Of a DNA stretch of 36,909 bases, positions 5,226 through 33,395 are shown piece by piece. The DNA is from Desulfarculaceae bacterium. GTDB lineage: Bacteria > Desulfobacterota > Desulfarculia > Desulfarculales > Desulfarculaceae. The notes beneath the pieces were generated by a model, which worked only from the letters and a program-made list of their open reading frames with translations, was not told where the DNA came from and did no database searches. The stretch's first letter is position 1. Each line of letters begins with the position of its first letter. The DNA lies in NCBI GenBank assembly GCA_027067385.1, contig JAMOVV010000104.1:1-36909 (forward strand), written 5' to 3'. The position numbers were made by a program, and so were the translations under genes.

Positions 5226-5246
5226 CCGCTGGCATGCATCCAGCGG
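5226..5246. repeat. Perfect 7-bp inverted repeat upstream of cheZ
   Basis: CCGCTGG and CCAGCGG flank a CATGCAT loop that is itself palindromic (ATGCAT). It lies 39 bp before the cheZ start, in the 111-bp gap after queH. There is no U-tract, so a terminator is unlikely. An operator or 5'-UTR hairpin is possible. Confidence 0.5.
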
Positions 5247-5284
5247 CCGGTTACAGCCAACCACCATTTGCAAAGGCGGATCAC

Positions 5285-6901
5285 ATGAGCCAGGCCAGTC
5301 CCCCCGAGATAACCTTTGAGCTGGATGGAGGATCGCTGACCATCCGCACCAGCGACGCCGTCTACCATATCGTGGTGACCGGCGCGGCCACCGCGCCGGC
5401 CGCCCTGCCCCAGGGGTCAGAGGCGGTGGGACAATTGCCGGCGGTGGACGAGTGGGACGTGCCAGAGCCCGTAACCGCAGACAAACCGGCGCCCACCTAC
5501 AAGCCGCAGAAGGACGATGGCTACTACAAGGAGCTGTCCCAGGAGATGTATCACGAGGTGGGACAGTTGGCCAAGCGCCTGAGCATGTCCATCTCCGACG
5601 TCAAGGGTGCGAAGGTCGATTCCATGGACCTGCAGGCGGCCGGGGACCAGTTGGAGAGCGCCAAGGACCAGCTGGAGTCGGTGGTGGAGATGACCGAGAA
5701 GGCCACCCTCACCATCATCGAGGAGAGCGAGAGCATCCAGAGCGCCATTGACCGCGTGCGCAGCATAATGGCCGAGATGTCAAGCGGCGCCCAGGACGGC
5801 GAGGAGAATGAAGACGGTCCGTCCCGGCAGAACCGCGAGGCCCTGGAGGAGATTCTGGAGACCCTGGCGCAGTACCTGGAGGCGGTGCGGCAGACACCGT
5901 TGGACGACGTGGTGGTGGAGGTGCATGCCATTGCCGGCGAACTGGGCCAAGCCAAGGGGGCGGCCGAGCCCGAGCCCGAGCCCGAGCCGGCGGCGACGGG
6001 TTATAGCTTTCCCCTGGAGCTGGTGTTCCAAACCACGTACGAGTTATGCACCAACGAGACGGTGAAGAAGCATCTCAAGGCCATGTGGGACGCCGGCGCC
6101 AAGGCCTTTGACCCGGCCAAGGTGGAGGCGGGGTTGAACAAGCTGGCCCCGGCCGAGCCGGACGAGGACAATTTCCTCAACGTGGATTTAAAGGGCGTGC
6201 TCAAGGTGCTGTTCCAGTCCACCAAGGTGGACAGTTACAAGGGCATCTTGAAAAAGATGGCCTCCACCGCCGACCAGATTTTTTTGGACCAGTTCCTGCC
6301 CATGGAGGCGGTGCCGGCCGAGGCCCCGGCGGCGGCTCCCAAGCCCAAGGCGGCCCCGGCCCCGGCCCCGGCGGCCGGCGGTGCGGCGGCCGAGCTAGCC
6401 GAGCGGCTGGAGGCTTTGGTGCAAAAACTGGAAGAGCGGGCCGCGGCGCTGAAACCGCCGGAGCTGCCTGGGGACCTCAAGGACCTGTTGCAGCGGGCCT
6501 TGGACGAGGCGTCCCAGGACCGCGCGAGGGTGACGCCGGAAAAGCTCCAGGAGCTCGACGAGAACATGAACCGGGTGATCAGCTCGGTCAACGCCATCAT
6601 CGAGGCCCTGAGTTTCCAGGACCTGTCGGGCCAGGCCATCTACCGCATCGTGCGGCTGCTCACCGACTTCCAGGTGCAGTTATTGGCCATGCTGGTGAGC
6701 TTTGGTTCCAAGATCAAGACCAAGGAGACCCGCGAGGAGATCACACCGGACGAGAGTGAGAAGCTGGCCCAGCAGGAGGTGGACAAGGCGTTGGAGAGCC
6801 TGGGGCTCAGTGACCCGGAGGCCGGCGGCGACAAGGAAGAAGAGCGTGGTCCCCTGGACCAGGACGCGGTGAACGCCATGCTGGAGTCGCTGGGTTTCTA
6901 G
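5285..6901 (+). CDS. cheZ: CheZ-type chemotaxis phosphatase with large central insert
   Basis: CheZ dephosphorylates CheY-P. The start at 5285 is preferred over an in-frame ATG at 5234 because AAAGGCGGA lies just upstream. The catalytic helix motif ALSFQDLSGQAIYRIV (441-456) keeps the acidic Asp446 and Gln450 expected from CheZ. The last residues (AMLESLGF) match the CheY-binding tail of E. coli CheZ (DDLLDSLGF). Residues 78-215 form long helices like the CheZ N-terminal hairpin. At 538 residues it is far longer than the ~214 of E. coli. About 222-370 hold an extra Glu/Pro/Ala-linked globular block (SFPLELVFQTTYELC to QIFLDQFLPM). No other chemotaxis gene is in the window. Confidence 0.85.
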   Translation: MSQASPPEITFELDGGSLTIRTSDAVYHIVVTGAATAPAALPQGSEAVGQLPAVDEWDVPEPVTADKPAPTYKPQKDDGYYKELSQEMYHEVGQLAKRLSMSISDVKGAKVDSMDLQAAGDQLESAKDQLESVVEMTEKATLTIIEESESIQSAIDRVRSIMAEMSSGAQDGEENEDGPSRQNREALEEILETLAQYLEAVRQTPLDDVVVEVHAIAGELGQAKGAAEPEPEPEPAATGYSFPLELVFQTTYELCTNETVKKHLKAMWDAGAKAFDPAKVEAGLNKLAPAEPDEDNFLNVDLKGVLKVLFQSTKVDSYKGILKKMASTADQIFLDQFLPMEAVPAEAPAAAPKPKAAPAPAPAAGGAAAELAERLEALVQKLEERAAALKPPELPGDLKDLLQRALDEASQDRARVTPEKLQELDENMNRVISSVNAIIEALSFQDLSGQAIYRIVRLLTDFQVQLLAMLVSFGSKIKTKETREEITPDESEKLAQQEVDKALESLGLSDPEAGGDKEEERGPLDQDAVNAMLESLGF

Positions 6902-28067: not shown

Positions 28068-28835
28068 CTAGCGGGAGGCCATGAAGTCGATGATGGCCTG
28101 GTTCACGGCGCGGGGCTGCTCCAGGTTGACCATGTGCCCGCCGCCCTCGATGACCTTCATCTCGGCGCCGGGGATGCGCTCGGCCAGGAAACGGCTGTAC
28201 TTCACCGGGGTGAGTTGGTCGCCGTCGCCCACCAGGACCAGGGTGGGCAGGCTGATGCGGCCCAGTTGGTCGCTCACGTCAAAGCGGTCGCAGGCGGTGA
28301 AGTTGGACCAGAGCACCTCGGGGTCCACCGCTGACATCTCCTTGGCCCCCTGGGCCAGGGTGGCCTCGTCGGCCTGGGGGGAGTAGGCGTAGCGCACGAT
28401 CATGGGCACGATGGCCGCGAAGTTGTCCCGTATGCCGTCGAGTATGGCCGGCAGCACCCGCAGCCGGCTGCCGGTACCCATGAGGATCAGCCCGCGGACC
28501 AGGCTGGGGCGCTCCAGGGCCAACTGCAGGGCGATGGCCCCGCCCAGGGAATGGCCCATCAGCACCGGCCGCACCGGGCCGGCGGCCAGGAAGTCGCCGA
28601 GCCACTGGGCGTAGTCCTCCACCCGCACCGGGGCCGGGCCCGGGGTCTGGCCGCAGCCGGGCAGGTCGATGGCCGCCGGGTTGATCTCCGGGCCCAGGCG
28701 GAACAACTGCGGCCGGTAGTTGGCCGCGCTGCCGCCGGAGCCGTGGATCATCAGCAGGGTGGGCCGGGACGGATCGTAGGGGCCGGGTCCCTGCAAAAGT
28801 CCGATATCACGTGAGGCCAGGTGCTTCTCCCACAT
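28068..28835 (-). CDS. Alpha/beta hydrolase
   Basis: The 255 residues form a compact alpha/beta hydrolase. The oxyanion strand is LLMIHGSGGSAANY (about 27-40), the nucleophile elbow is GHSLGG (Ser near 95), the acid Asp is in VGDGDQLTP and the catalytic His in EGGGHMVNLEQP. All triad residues are intact. There is no signal peptide. ACGGGAG lies 9 nt before the ATG. It follows the etf operon but is separated from it by a terminator with a T6 tract, so it may have its own promoter. The substrate (ester, lactone or acyl thioester) cannot be told from sequence. Confidence 0.92.
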   Translation of the reverse strand: MWEKHLASRDIGLLQGPGPYDPSRPTLLMIHGSGGSAANYRPQLFRLGPEINPAAIDLPGCGQTPGPAPVRVEDYAQWLGDFLAAGPVRPVLMGHSLGGAIALQLALERPSLVRGLILMGTGSRLRVLPAILDGIRDNFAAIVPMIVRYAYSPQADEATLAQGAKEMSAVDPEVLWSNFTACDRFDVSDQLGRISLPTLVLVGDGDQLTPVKYSRFLAERIPGAEMKVIEGGGHMVNLEQPRAVNQAIIDFMASR

Positions 28836-28912: not shown

Positions 28913-29878
28913 CTAGTCCAGCTTCTTGACCTCTTCGGTCATGGCCGGCACCACGTCGAACAGGTCGGCCACGCAGCTGTAGTCGGCCTTGGTGTGGATG
29001 GGCGCGTCGGGGTCCTTGTTGATGGCCACGATGAGCTTGGATGAGCCCATGCCAGCCAAGTGCTGGATGGCGCCGCTGATGCCGCAGGCGATATACATGT
29101 TGGGAGTGACCACCTTACCGGTCTGTCCCACCTGGTCGCTGTGCGGCCGCCAACCGGCGTCCACCGCCGAACGGCTGGCGCCCACCGCGGCGCCCAGCTC
29201 GGCGGCCAGGGCCTCGATGATGGAGAAGTTGTCGGCGTCCTTCATGCCGCGGCCGCCGGACACGATGATGGTGGCCTCGGTGAGGTCGATCTTGCCCTCG
29301 GCCTCCTTGAGCACCTCGATCTGCTTGGTCTTTATCTCGCCCGGGGTGACGCTAACCGTCTCCACCACGGCCTCGCCGCCCACTTCGTCGGCGTCGAACA
29401 CGTTGGGCCGCAAACTGGCGATCTGGGGCGAACTCTTGATCAACACGTCGGCGTAGACCTTGCCGGCGTAGATGGGCCGGGTGGCCTTGAGCCTGCCGTC
29501 TTCCACCGCCAGTTTGGTGCAGTCCACCGCGATGGAGGTATCGAGCTTGGCCGCCAAACGGCCGCCCAGCTCCTTGCCTTGCATGGAGGCCGGCAGCAAC
29601 ACTACCTCCGGCTGTCCCTCGCTGATCAGCCCGGCCAGGGCCCCGGCATAAGCGTTGACCAAATATACTTCAAAGGCGTCGTCCTCGGCGTAGAGGACCT
29701 TGTTTACGCCGTATTTACCCAGGTCGGCGCAAGCCGCTTCCAGGCCCTTACCCAGGACCACCGCGGTCACCTCGGCGCCCATCTCCTCGGCCACCTTCTT
29801 GGCCGCGCTGGCCGCCTCAAAGGTCACCTTGCGGAACTCGCCGTCACGATGCTCGGCTATTACCCAAACACCTGCCAT
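28913..29878 (-). CDS. etfA: Electron transfer flavoprotein alpha subunit
   Basis: EtfA binds FAD and, with EtfB, accepts electrons from acyl-CoA dehydrogenases or similar enzymes. The start at 29878 is chosen because AAGGGAGAG precedes it and homologs begin with MAGVWVIAEHRDG. The 321 residues have the alpha-subunit N-terminal fold, then the C-terminal FAD domain with VSGGRGMKDADNF, AVGASRSAVDAGW, QVGQTGKVVTPNMYIACG-like and SGAIQHLAGM, KLIVAINKDPDAPI segments. It lies 48 nt after etfB in one operon. The regulator upstream and operator type suggest use in fatty acyl-CoA oxidation. No acyl-CoA dehydrogenase is within the window. Confidence 0.96.
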   Translation of the reverse strand: MAGVWVIAEHRDGEFRKVTFEAASAAKKVAEEMGAEVTAVVLGKGLEAACADLGKYGVNKVLYAEDDAFEVYLVNAYAGALAGLISEGQPEVVLLPASMQGKELGGRLAAKLDTSIAVDCTKLAVEDGRLKATRPIYAGKVYADVLIKSSPQIASLRPNVFDADEVGGEAVVETVSVTPGEIKTKQIEVLKEAEGKIDLTEATIIVSGGRGMKDADNFSIIEALAAELGAAVGASRSAVDAGWRPHSDQVGQTGKVVTPNMYIACGISGAIQHLAGMGSSKLIVAINKDPDAPIHTKADYSCVADLFDVVPAMTEEVKKLD

Positions 29879-29926
29879 ATCTATAACTCTCCCTTCGGAA
29901 GAAAGGTTTCTCGCAATCAAAGCCCG

Positions 29927-30694
29927 TTAGATGACCTTGGCCTCTTCGCGCAGCAGCTTCACCAGGTTGATGGCTATCTCCTGGCCGGTCTCACCCTCCA
30001 CCTGCTTGCCCGGGGCACGCTCCGGCGGCGGATTCAGAGCGACGATCTCCAGCTTGTCGTCGCGCTCCACTCCCAGGTCGGCCAGGCTTATGACCTCCAG
30101 GGGCTTCTTCTTGGCCTTCATGATGCCCGGAAGCGACGCGTAACGCGGCTCGTTGAGACCCTTCTGAGCAGTGATCACGCAGGGCAGCGTGGACTCCAGC
30201 ACCAGAGTGGCGCCCTCCACCGGGCGGTGGGCCTGCACCGTGCCGTCGCCTACCTCAACCTTGGTCACCACCGAAAGCTGGGGCATGTCTAAAAATTCGG
30301 CCACCGCCGAACCGACCACGCCGCTGTCGTCGTCCACGGCCCGCTGGCCGAAGAAAATGATGTCGGGATTGAGGGGCTCGATCGCCTTGGCCAACACCTT
30401 GGCCACAGTGATGGGATCGGCCCCGTAGAAATCGTCGTCCTCGATCAACACCGCCTTGTCGGCGCCCATGGCCAGGGCGGTGCGCAAAGCCTCGGTCACC
30501 CGCTGGGGACCGGCCCCCACCACGGTCACCTCGGCGCCCTTCTCTTTCTGAAGAACCAGTGCTTCCTCAACCCCAAACTCGTCGTAGGGGTTCATGACCC
30601 ACTTGATGTCATCGGTCTCGATGGACTTGCCATCGCTCGCGATCTTGATCTGGGTCTCAGTGTCCGGCACCTGCTTGATGCAAACAACTATGTT
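29927..30694 (-). CDS. etfB: Electron transfer flavoprotein beta subunit
   Basis: EtfB binds AMP (or a second FAD in bifurcating forms). The start is GTG at 30694, preceded by AAAAGGAGG, giving MNIVVCIKQVPDT, the usual beginning. The 255 residues contain the WVMNPYDEFGVEEAL segment, VVGAGPQRVTEALRTALAMGAD, IIFFGQRAVDDDSGVVG (nucleotide binding) and the ETF-beta signature near VISLADLGV. Upstream in the same direction is the TetR gene (58 bp away), downstream etfA. From sequence alone I cannot decide whether this pair is bifurcating or conventional. Confidence 0.96.
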   Translation of the reverse strand, partial: NIVVCIKQVPDTETQIKIASDGKSIETDDIKWVMNPYDEFGVEEALVLQKEKGAEVTVVGAGPQRVTEALRTALAMGADKAVLIEDDDFYGADPITVAKVLAKAIEPLNPDIIFFGQRAVDDDSGVVGSAVAEFLDMPQLSVVTKVEVGDGTVQAHRPVEGATLVLESTLPCVITAQKGLNEPRYASLPGIMKAKKKPLEVISLADLGVERDDKLEIVALNPPPERAPGKQVEGETGQEIAINLVKLLREEAKVI

Positions 30695-30752
30695 CACTGC
30701 CAAAACCCTCCTTTTCAATCCAAGGGGCGCCGTGCCCGGTAAGGCGTCCGGC

Positions 30753-31364
30753 TCACGCCGCCAGCATCCCTCTTAGGAAATATGAACTTATCTCGTCGGC
30801 CGCGGTGGCAATGGAATATTTCCTGGTGGAAGACAACACCCAGTAGCGGCTCATCTCATCAAGCGCCCCCCATATGGCGCGCTTGGCGATGCCCGGCTCG
30901 ATGTCCTTGCGGAAAACTCCCTTTTCCTGCCCCTCGCGAATGATACTGCTGATTAGATTGAGGTACTCGTAAAACTTCTCGTTGTGATATTCCTTCATGA
31001 ACTTGGACGACTGACGCAACTCCACCTGGATTATCTCGGCCAACTCGGCGTTGCTCTGCAGTAAGGACAAATGGGCCTTGGCAAAGGCCTTGAGCTTTTC
31101 GGCCGGGTCGTCGTGCTCGGCTATGGCGGCGCGCATGGCGTCGAGGATTCTTTGCATCTCCTCTTCAAACAAGGTGATAAGAATATCGTCTTTGTTCTGA
31201 AAATACAAATAAATAGTGCCATCGGCCACGTTGGCGGCCCGGGCAATCTCACTCACCTTGGAGTTGTAAAAGCCGTTCTTGGCAAAGACCTTCACCGCCG
31301 CTGCGATTATGCGACGGTGCTTATCCGTGGACTTTTTGTTTTTGCGCTTCAAGGTTCGTCTCAC
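30753..31364 (-). CDS. TetR/AcrR-family regulator, FadR-like
   Basis: A 203-residue repressor-type regulator, probably of fatty-acid degradation. The helix-turn-helix reads KHRRIIAAAVKVFAKNG then VSEIARAANVADGTIYLYF, followed by a helical ligand domain. The start codon is uncertain. A TTG at 31418 would lie inside the operator and -10 box, so GTG at 31364 is preferred; TTG at 31352 after GGTGAG is an alternative. The gene leads etfB and etfA on the same strand, as fadR precedes etfB-etfA in the Bacillus subtilis lcfA-fadR-fadB-etfB-etfA operon. A perfect FadR-type palindrome in its promoter implies autoregulation and acyl-CoA control, by analogy. Confidence 0.88.
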   Translation of the reverse strand: MRRTLKRKNKKSTDKHRRIIAAAVKVFAKNGFYNSKVSEIARAANVADGTIYLYFQNKDDILITLFEEEMQRILDAMRAAIAEHDDPAEKLKAFAKAHLSLLQSNAELAEIIQVELRQSSKFMKEYHNEKFYEYLNLISSIIREGQEKGVFRKDIEPGIAKRAIWGALDEMSRYWVLSSTRKYSIATAADEISSYFLRGMLAA

Positions 31365-31399
31365 CCCGTGCCCGCTGGGGCCCTTAGGGATATTTCTGG

Positions 31400-31417
31400 T
31401 GAATGACGGTTCATTCA
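31400..31417. promoter_or_regulatory. FadR-type operator TGAATGA-N4-TCATTCA
   Basis: A perfect 7-bp inverted repeat with 4-bp spacer overlaps the predicted -10 box and start site of the tetR-etfB-etfA promoter. It matches the operator form known for Bacillus FadR. Confidence 0.82.
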
Positions 31418-31444
31418 ACTATCACGTCACGGGCACCATGTCAA
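31416..31444 (-). promoter_or_regulatory. Promoter of the tetR-etfB-etfA operon
   Basis: On the minus strand a perfect TTGACA (31444-31439) is 17 bp from TAGTTG (31421-31416), a weak -10. The overlap with the palindrome at 31400-31417 suggests repression by occlusion. Confidence 0.62.
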
Positions 31445-31467
31445 CCATTTTTCCAGGGGCCATCTAG

Positions 31468-31482
31468 GTGAATGTAATTCAC
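31468..31482. promoter_or_regulatory. Second palindrome upstream of the etf promoter
   Basis: GTGAAT-GTA-ATTCAC is a perfect 6-bp inverted repeat with 3-bp spacer, centred about 34 bp upstream of the -35 box. It shares TGAAT/ATTCA half-sites with the downstream operator but has different spacing. Confidence 0.5.
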
Positions 31483-31635
31483 GCAGCGGCGTGCCGGCAG
31501 CATGCTGCTGCACCCGTATGGGCCGGGGCGTTATCCTTCGGGCCGCCGTCATCATTCAATTGCCACCGAGCAAAGCAAAACTGACCCGACCTAAAAGTCG
31601 GCTCCGAGCGAAGCAGGTGGGGGGACGAGCTAAAA

Positions 31636-31680
31636 AATAGATGTCATCGCGAGCGGCAGCGAAGCGACCTTCCTCTTCCA
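31636..31680 (+). repeat. CGTCATTGCGAG-type dispersed repeat, copy 1
   Basis: AATAGATGTCATCGCGAG, then AGCGAAGCGACCTTCC, resembles the widespread family of intergenic elements beginning CGTCATTGCGAGGAGC and containing GAAGCGAC. It interrupts the Y-X module array. Confidence 0.6.
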
Positions 31681-32032
31681 TCTTTGGTTGAGAGAGAAGC
31701 GGAAGTTTGCTTCGTCGGCCGAGTGCCTCCGCTGCCGTATGGGCCGGGGCGATATTCTTCGGGCTGCTGTTACCATTCAATTGCCACCGACCGGAGCAAA
31801 ACCGACCCGACCTAAAAGTCGGCTCCGAGCGAAGCAGGTAGAGGGACGAGCCCGTAATGTGTGGACTTGGCCCCACTACGGGAGCCGCAGCTCGCGGCGC
31901 GGCGTGCCGCCGCAGCCGTATGGGCCGGGACGTTATCCTTCGGGCCGCCGTCATCATTCAATTACCATCGGGCAAGAGATTGCGGGTAATTCCCAAGGAT
32001 GTCATTTATGGCCAGCCAAGAGGGGAAAAGGA

Positions 32033-32073
32033 AGATTGCTTCGTCGCTTGCCAGCTCCTCGCAATGACGTCTA
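32033..32073 (-). repeat. CGTCATTGCGAG-type dispersed repeat, copy 2 (inverted)
   Basis: GAAGATTGCTTCGTCGCTTG, then CTCCTCGCAATGACGTCTATT, is the reverse-complement orientation of copy 1, and both copies share an AATAGA(T/C)GTCAT end. The pair forms a long-range inverted repeat 350-400 bp apart. Confidence 0.65.
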
Positions 32074-32270
32074 TTCTGTAAAAATGACCCGACCTAAAAG
32101 AACGCGCGAGCGGAGAAGGCCGGGGGACGAGCCTGGAGCGGCCCGCCACCGGGCCTATACGGGAGCCCGGGCACTGGGCCGACCTAAAAGTCGGCCCCGA
32201 GCAGAGCAGGCCGAGGGACGAGCCTGCTACCGCTGGGACTTGGACCCACTACGGCTGCCGCGGCTCGTGG

Positions 32271-33395
32271 CTAGCGGTATTTTTTGATGGCGCGTAGATG
32301 ATCGCGATAGTGGCGGTTGAAGACGTGGGTGCCGTCGCCCCGGGCCACGAAGTACAGGTAATCGACCTTGGCCGGGTCCACGGCGGCCTTGAGGCTGCCC
32401 AGGCCGGGCGAGCAGATGGGTCCCGGCGGCAGGCCGGGGTGCAGGTAGGTGTTGTACGGATGCTCGACCTTCAGGTGCTTGCGCAGCAGGGGTCCCTTGA
32501 GGTCCTTAATGCCATAGGCCACGGTGGGGTCGGCCTGCAGGGGCATACCCAGCTTGAGGCGGTTATGGTAGACCGCGCTGATGATGCGGCGTTCGCCGCC
32601 GGCCACGGCCTCGCCTTCGATGATGGAGGCCAGGGTCACCGCCTGGTGCATATCCAGGCCGAGTTTTTTGGCCTTGGCGGCCAGGGGCTGCCAGTGTTTT
32701 TTGAACTGGGCCACCATGACCTGCAGGGCGCGCTTGGCCCCGGCGCCGCGCACGAACTGGTAGGTATCGGGAAAAAGGTAGCCTTCCAGGCTGGCGGCCT
32801 TGAGCCCCAGGGAGGCGATAAACTTCCGGTCGGTGCTGAGCCGGCGGGCGTCATCGGCGTCGCAGACCCCGCTGGCGGCCAGGCGCTCGATTATGCGGGC
32901 CAGGGTAAAGCCTTCGGGGATGAGCACCGCCCGCCGGTTCACCCGGCCCTGGACCAGCACCTCGATGATGGCCCGGTAGCTCATGGAGGGGCTGAGGCGG
33001 TATTCGCCGGCCTTCACCACGGGGTGGTACTGCCAGCCGTGCAGCCGGGCGGCGGCCACCCACAGGCGGGGGTAGTCCACGATGCCTTGCCGTTTCAGGA
33101 TATAGGCCGTCTGGCGCAAGCTGGCCCCGCGGGGGATATCCACCACCTTGGGCAGGCCGCCGGCAGTGGCGCGGTGCTCCAGCAGCAGGCTGCCGCCGGC
33201 CCACAGGCCGGCGGCCAACACGGCCAGGCCAACCACCAGGATAACGGCCGCGCGCCTCAGGACCCGTCGCCGGTCCGGGCCAGGTAGCGGTCCAGGATCA
33301 GGGCCGCCGCCACCTTGTCGATCTTTTGGCGGCGCTTGGCCCGGCTCATGTCCCCGGCCAGCATCGCCTGGTCGGCCTGAAGAGTTGTCTCCCAT
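32271..33395 (-). CDS. mltG: Endolytic murein transglycosylase MltG (YceG-like)
   Basis: MltG cleaves nascent peptidoglycan glycan strands and helps set chain length. The sequence has one transmembrane helix (about 48-70), a LysM-like VDIPRGASLRQTAYILKRQ region, IPEGFTLARII, LEGYLFPDTYQF, and the catalytic block ASIIEGEAVAGGERRIISAVYHNRL with the conserved Glu. The C-terminal YNTYLHPGLPPGPICSPG motif is intact. The only ATG is at 33395, which would overlap ruvX by 139 bp. Its first ~45 residues are Gly/Pro-rich and look like a frame shadow of ruvX, so a start near 33236 (GTG) may be correct. The gene follows ruvX on the same strand. Confidence 0.9.
   Translation of the reverse strand: MGDNSSGRPGDAGRGHEPGQAPPKDRQGGGGPDPGPLPGPDRRRVLRRAAVILVVGLAVLAAGLWAGGSLLLEHRATAGGLPKVVDIPRGASLRQTAYILKRQGIVDYPRLWVAAARLHGWQYHPVVKAGEYRLSPSMSYRAIIEVLVQGRVNRRAVLIPEGFTLARIIERLAASGVCDADDARRLSTDRKFIASLGLKAASLEGYLFPDTYQFVRGAGAKRALQVMVAQFKKHWQPLAAKAKKLGLDMHQAVTLASIIEGEAVAGGERRIISAVYHNRLKLGMPLQADPTVAYGIKDLKGPLLRKHLKVEHPYNTYLHPGLPPGPICSPGLGSLKAAVDPAKVDYLYFVARGDGTHVFNRHYRDHLRAIKKYR

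Follow-up and report, generated by a model that had tools for sequence, protein, structure and literature searches.

The fadR-etfB-etfA locus and its predicted operator

The window, as we call the whole analysed stretch of 36,909 nucleotides, carries a gene for a TetR-family regulator followed by the genes for the two electron transfer flavoprotein (ETF) subunits. All three lie on the minus strand, in the order tetR-etfB-etfA given in the original prediction. The features of the locus are:

31439..31444, minus strand: -35 box TTGACA, read from the sequence
31416..31421, minus strand: putative -10 box TAGTTG, at 17 bp spacing, with an extended TG at 31423-31424
31400..31417, no strand assigned: predicted FadR operator, perfect TGAATGA-N4-TCATTCA (sequence, genome scan, relatives)
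30753..31355, minus strand: fadR, TetR-family regulator of 200 aa, TTG start behind GGGGTGAG (NF053878, PF08359, PF00440)
29927..30718 (start as listed for the ORF), minus strand: etfB, ETF beta subunit (PF01012)
28913..29920, minus strand: etfA, ETF alpha subunit (PF01012 and PF00766)
28068..28835, minus strand: alpha/beta hydrolase gene after etfA (profile match)

For etfB, an internal GTG at about 30697 is a likelier start than the one listed. The alpha/beta hydrolase gene is probably not part of the conserved module and was rejected as a member because just 2 of 35 relatives have it behind etfA.

The operator, TGAATGACGGTTCATTCA, is the 18-mer TGAATGA-CGGT-TCATTCA at 31400-31417, and both of its 7-bp arms are perfect, as had been predicted. 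We take its half-sites, TGAATGA/TCATTCA, to be the Bacillus FadR consensus. When the window was scanned with up to three mismatches allowed, the 18-mer was the sole match; shuffled sequences gave a mean of 0.24 such matches. By a first-order Markov estimate, the exact 18-mer is expected about 1.6 × 10−5 times in the window and 0.0014 times in a whole genome as large as this one. If any sequence is allowed, perfect 7-4-7 inverted repeats are not rare in the window (7 seen versus 4.8 expected), so the weight lies with the specific sequence and not with the symmetry. The frequency of such repeats would be in line with a palindrome that arose by chance, but the rarity of this particular sequence, the occurrence of its other genomic copies solely before fadN, and its retention by 30 of 34 relatives, with one mismatch or none, led us to reject this reading, the probability of which we consider negligible.

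The protein search gave 75 loci, and the operator was sought at the 35 nearest of them (L006-L040, 39-78% identity) and at the remote loci L041, L042, and L057. L039 has no upstream DNA, hence the counts refer to 34 relatives and the window. In these 35 sequences the best site had no mismatch in 28, one in 3, two in 2, and three in 2, the last of which may be chance matches. In the relatives alone, the operator was exact in 27 of 34 and had one mismatch in 3. Desulfocarbo indianensis and Dethiosulfatarculus sandiegensis (L015 and L022) are among the relatives with an operator at fadR. Among the remote loci only L057 has a site, with two mismatches. Column counts revealed near-invariant seven-base arms, with T favoured on either side of the 18-mer and weak conservation beyond. 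The gene etfB adjoins fadR in 30 of 35 loci; three of the five exceptions (L027, L032, and L036) end at or near a contig edge, while L037 and L040 do not.

The perfect TTGACA of the original prediction is present on the minus strand at 31444-31439, and TTGAC was found at most 45 bp upstream of the operator in all 35 sequences (34 relatives and the window), as compared with 0.8 expected from shuffles. In the same set, a -10 hexamer starting with TA follows at a spacing of 17 bp in 31/35 and of 18 bp in 4/35. The window's own TAGTTG is weak by consensus. The operator had been placed on the -10 region, which is roughly right, but it shares only the last two bases of the -10 box and mainly covers the start-site region. 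Its placement behind the -35/-10 pair, a typical repressor position, suggests a repressor role for the regulator.

The gap upstream of the promoter, at 31495-32223, is filled by two repeats, one of 136 nt and one of 51 nt (ACCTAAAAGTCGGCTCCGAGC...GGGACGAGC), each in three imperfect copies. A search with Rfam at the gathering score found no known RNA in 31300-32300, and the repeats had no Rfam match.

The regulator scores 202.4 bits against the NCBIfam FadR equivalog NF053878 and thus passes the cut-off of 200 by only 2.4 bits. It also matches PF00440 (TetR_N) and, with 101.5 bits against a cut-off of 21, PF08359 (YsiA-like C-terminal region), for which it is the only match in the genome. The PsrA model gave just 21 bits. 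The top PDB matches were 5gp9 and 5gpa, named there merely as TetR/AcrR family, followed by 1vi0 and 3whb, and 3whb alone among these four is named as a fatty acid metabolism regulator; we take 5gp9 to be B. halodurans FadR and 1vi0 to be B. subtilis FadR. Identity to 5gp9 amounts to 79 of 190 aligned positions for the whole protein and to 46 of 134 for the ligand domain. In the HTH, the two chains share 16 of the 20 residues that span helices 2 and 3, VADGTIYLYF being unchanged. Orthology of the window's regulator with Bacillus FadR is supported, and so is the FadR-type reading of the original prediction.

Operators at fadN and the proposed control circuit

The window's genome (G000) comprises 3.17 Mb in 206 contigs and is 86% complete. 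With up to two mismatches allowed, it contains three operator sites, all perfect, and no match to the reversed control pattern. The two sites outside the window lie 77 bp apart on another contig, their first bases 156 and 79 bp ahead of the motif by which fadN was recognised. The first follows its own TTGACA and the second lies well downstream. The gene fadN encodes a 3-hydroxyacyl-CoA dehydrogenase (PF02737) and is cut by the contig end after 205 aa; a second contig opens with fadN residues 361-812, followed by fadA and fadE. We infer that the two contigs hold one fadN-fadA-fadE operon across an assembly gap. The order fadN-fadA-fadE is evident at L140, a locus of another family member, where FadE scores 841.7 bits against the Bacillus FadE equivalog and so clears the cut-off of 600. 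Additional TGAATGA half-sites were seen between the two perfect operators in the fadN leader (L004, approximately 5233-5327, contig C64).

The second locus was read in seven other genomes of the family, and two exact operators 57-66 bp apart were found in six and a single one in G015. Paired fadN operators at a spacing of 57-77 bp are therefore present in 7 of 8 family genomes, that of the window included. The start of fadN was recognised by its motif in 6 of the 8, L141 and L146 being missed. The kept spacing and the extra half-sites hint at cooperative or looped binding. The pairing also bears on the idea that FadR is an activator or a dual regulator at some sites and not a plain repressor, as a first operator just behind the fadN promoter and a second one downstream would allow looping or a roadblock. 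At fadR, however, the operator always comes after the -35/-10 pair, and we regard this idea as very unlikely.

The original prediction had named the absence of the motif upstream of other fatty-acid genes as an argument against itself; two perfect copies precede fadN-fadA-fadE, and this check did not refute it. It had also suggested a scan near acyl-CoA dehydrogenase and ligase genes: as the genome has only three sites, no promoter of an acyl-CoA ligase or of another acyl-CoA dehydrogenase carries one at up to two mismatches in this 86%-complete genome. The envisaged switch is too narrow in being limited to ETF supply, as core beta-oxidation enzymes also belong to the predicted genome-wide regulon. 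In the same scan (at most two mismatches, 86%-complete genome), no further operators were found at the equivalents of lcfB, fadHG, and fadF-acdA; such sites belong to the B. subtilis regulon as a feature of that lineage and do not define the FadR protein. FadF, an FeS oxidoreductase, was considered as an extra target and rejected: partial homologues exist (the best with 36% over residues 300-682), but there is no fourth site at up to two mismatches.

The operator, the promoter, the gene order, the orthology, the conservation, and the genome-wide distribution are supported at the level of sequence, from which we infer DNA binding by the window's FadR, repression as the sign of control, and acyl-CoA as the ligand. 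Very probably, the FadR orthologue represses its own fadR-etfB-etfA operon and, via the two further operators, fadN-fadA-fadE, and is relieved by acyl-CoA. When long-chain acyl-CoA is lacking, a FadR dimer would sit over the transcription start region and block RNA polymerase. Accumulating acyl-CoA would bind the C-terminal domain and the dimer would leave the operator, upon which the beta-oxidation enzymes and the electron transfer flavoprotein taking their electrons would rise together. Such a scheme would provide a concrete and testable control circuit for anaerobic fatty-acid oxidisers of a lineage that is uncultured.

Anaerobes of this kind use many acyl-CoAs, and with an equivalog margin of 2.4 bits and a ligand domain just 46/134 identical to that of 5gp9 the ligand could have drifted. 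A FadR-clade TetR protein that sits on the operator but answers to something other than long-chain acyl-CoA, e.g. a short-chain, aromatic, or alicyclic acyl-CoA, is nevertheless rather unlikely in view of the PF08359 match of 101.5 bits, the Bacillus-type fadNAE under the same operators, and the appearance of a Desulfococcus multivorans FadR2 on myristate (PMC5109826).

In B. subtilis, C14-20 acyl-CoA inhibits FadR, and the operons that FadR represses include lcfA-fadR-fadB-etfB-etfA and fadNAE (PMC4525379). The original prediction had likewise named fadR and etfB-etfA as members of the Bacillus operon. The window's regulator resembles B. subtilis and B. halodurans FadR (YsiA, TetR family) in NF053878, PF08359, the helix VADGTIYLYF, and the half-sites TGAATGA/TCATTCA, as well as in an operator at its own etfB-etfA operon and in fadNAE as a target, both of which are predictions from sequence for the window. 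In contrast to Bacillus, the operon lacks the acyl-CoA ligase gene (lcfA) and fadB, the central four bases are CGGT, fadN has two operators, the equivalents of fadF, fadHG, and lcfB have none, and the host is a Gram-negative anaerobe.

In the sulfate reducer D. multivorans, a TetR-type FadR2 is encoded in one locus with etfA5B5 and fadF and was detected specifically in myristate-adapted cells (PMC5109826); this fits autoregulated derepression in Desulfobacterota. The locus is like that of the window in combining a TetR-type FadR with etfAB in the same phylum, and differs in also containing fadD5, acdA9, and fadF; its description in PMC5109826, as far as consulted, mentions no operator. The E. 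coli-type FadR and the PsrA and FadP of Proteobacteria do the same job, control of fatty-acid degradation, but the former is of another family (GntR) and the latter two belong to other TetR branches than the window's FadR. The PsrA regulon extends to TCA genes in Shewanellaceae (PMC5343134). The window's case is a further example of the known FadR type.

Distribution and origin of the regulator and its operator

To call FadR in 297 Desulfobacterota genomes, hits at E 1e-40 or better were counted, a threshold that was set after the list was seen. FadR was hit in 127 of the 297 genomes, and the exact 18-mer was present in 74, versus 2 for the reversed control. Both occurred together in 68 genomes, FadR only in 59, the motif only in 6, and neither in 164 (Fisher p 2e-24, kinship ignored). 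This co-occurrence speaks for the circuit proposed above; the 59 of 127 FadR-bearing genomes that have no exact 18-mer count against it. Of the six genomes with the motif alone, three (G003, G031, and G137) have a completeness of 82-85%, and in a fourth, G170, the site precedes an etfB. In the other two, G098 and G202 (L238 and L239), the gene behind the exact 18-mer is a different TetR gene, accompanied by an RND efflux operon. Specificity of the 18-mer for FadR is hence not complete, and this site, or one very much like it, may also be recognised by another branch of TetR proteins. Within the window's family, the site is present in 8 of 9 genomes; the ninth, G146, has neither a strong FadR hit nor the site. 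The 18-mer can serve to predict regulons from genome sequences throughout the phylum.

In a tree of 75 proteins, the root of which is unsure, the window's FadR groups with its own family inside a 31-row Desulfobacterota clade (97/90). The Bacillota FadR proteins form a separate clade (100/100) that also holds nine Desulfobacterota rows. Together, the Desulfobacterota and Bacillota proteins group apart from the outgroup TetRs, on a branch with a support of 86/87 and with long outgroup branches. The nine nested FadR proteins (L081, L082, L086, L088, L090, L094, L097, L101, and L104) are probable lateral transfers, perhaps with an altered site. Their genomes lack the exact operator.

These nine rows would be in line with a recent acquisition of the window's regulator and operator from Bacillota as well. 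The window's FadR, however, has its own family as nearest neighbours in the 31-row clade, apart from Bacillota, and its lineage therefore did not recently borrow the regulator and the site; we rejected such a transfer as highly improbable. Between the two origins left open by the original prediction, conserved or convergently acquired, the former is favoured: the FadR equivalog model, the structure matches, and the tree point to homology with the Bacillota regulator and operator, for which convergent acquisition was rejected. In the control genome G297 (Oceanobacillus), the exact site lies about 40 bp before its own fadR match. The presence of the regulator/operator pair in two phyla could reflect either shared descent or an old transfer. 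Two bacterial groups that are very far apart thus appear to control fat breakdown by one and the same regulator and site, and the pair and two target operons would have been kept together between Bacillota and Desulfobacterota.

Operators at energy-metabolism genes in other lineages

Exact sites were listed in 19 chosen genomes, which gave 75 sites and no match to the reversed control, and the surroundings were read for part of them. Many of these sites precede beta-oxidation genes, but not all. Sites and first genes are approximately 20 to 480 bp apart; where the genes diverge, it is uncertain which side would be controlled.

In genus g9, all three genomes (G001, G041, and G077; L147-L150, L206-L211) have five exact sites each. 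In G001, one is at fadR. Another precedes aprB-aprA (200.1 bits over 135.65 for aprB, 931 over 642 for aprA), with further oxidoreductase genes behind. A third stands before a gene for a cobyrinate a,c-diamide synthase (dsrN-like), which is followed by dsrC and dsrK (DsrC 82 over 24.9, DsrK 741 over 400), a fourth before an HdrA-type gene set, and the remaining one has a folC-like gene on one side and on the other folD, with CODH/ACS (1111 over 800) behind it. The sites read in G041 and G077 precede matching genes where the contigs allow; the apr and dsr sites of G041 were matched to those of G077 only by their identical central four bases. In this genus, FadR may control both sulfate respiration and acetyl-CoA oxidation. 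In G068 (family f32), folD is again found with a CODH-type cluster, FolD being identified by Pfam and the cluster by eye.

In family f15, three genomes of three genera (G013, G051, and G087; L217, L218, L219, L220, L230, L231, L233, and L234) have sites before both F-type ATP synthase operons, that for the b/delta/alpha subunits and atpI-atpB-atpE, and in G087 a site also precedes rnfA. AtpB and AtpF of G051 and RnfA of G087 were checked by profile and the rest by eye.

We lean slightly towards the view that FadR is a phylum-wide acyl-CoA switch in Desulfobacterota that has, judging from the positions of these sites, grown in several lineages from a repressor of beta-oxidation into a general regulator of energy metabolism. 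If this is true, acetyl-CoA oxidation, sulfate respiration, and ATP synthesis would all be adjusted by a signal derived from fat; the sites before sulfate-reduction, Wood-Ljungdahl, and ATP synthase genes predict a respiration tuned to fatty-acid supply. The putative expansion of the regulon in these lineages is more surprising than the window's case. Among the papers listed in literature searches, none dealt in its title or abstract with a FadR operator in Desulfobacterota or with apr, dsr, CODH/ACS, or ATP synthase as FadR targets. In PMC6687939, the string FadR belongs to the name of an author.

At two further sites, the genes were named by eye. In G087, a site also lies before a V-type ATPase-like operon, and G031 has one before a malic enzyme-like gene with apparent sdh genes behind it.
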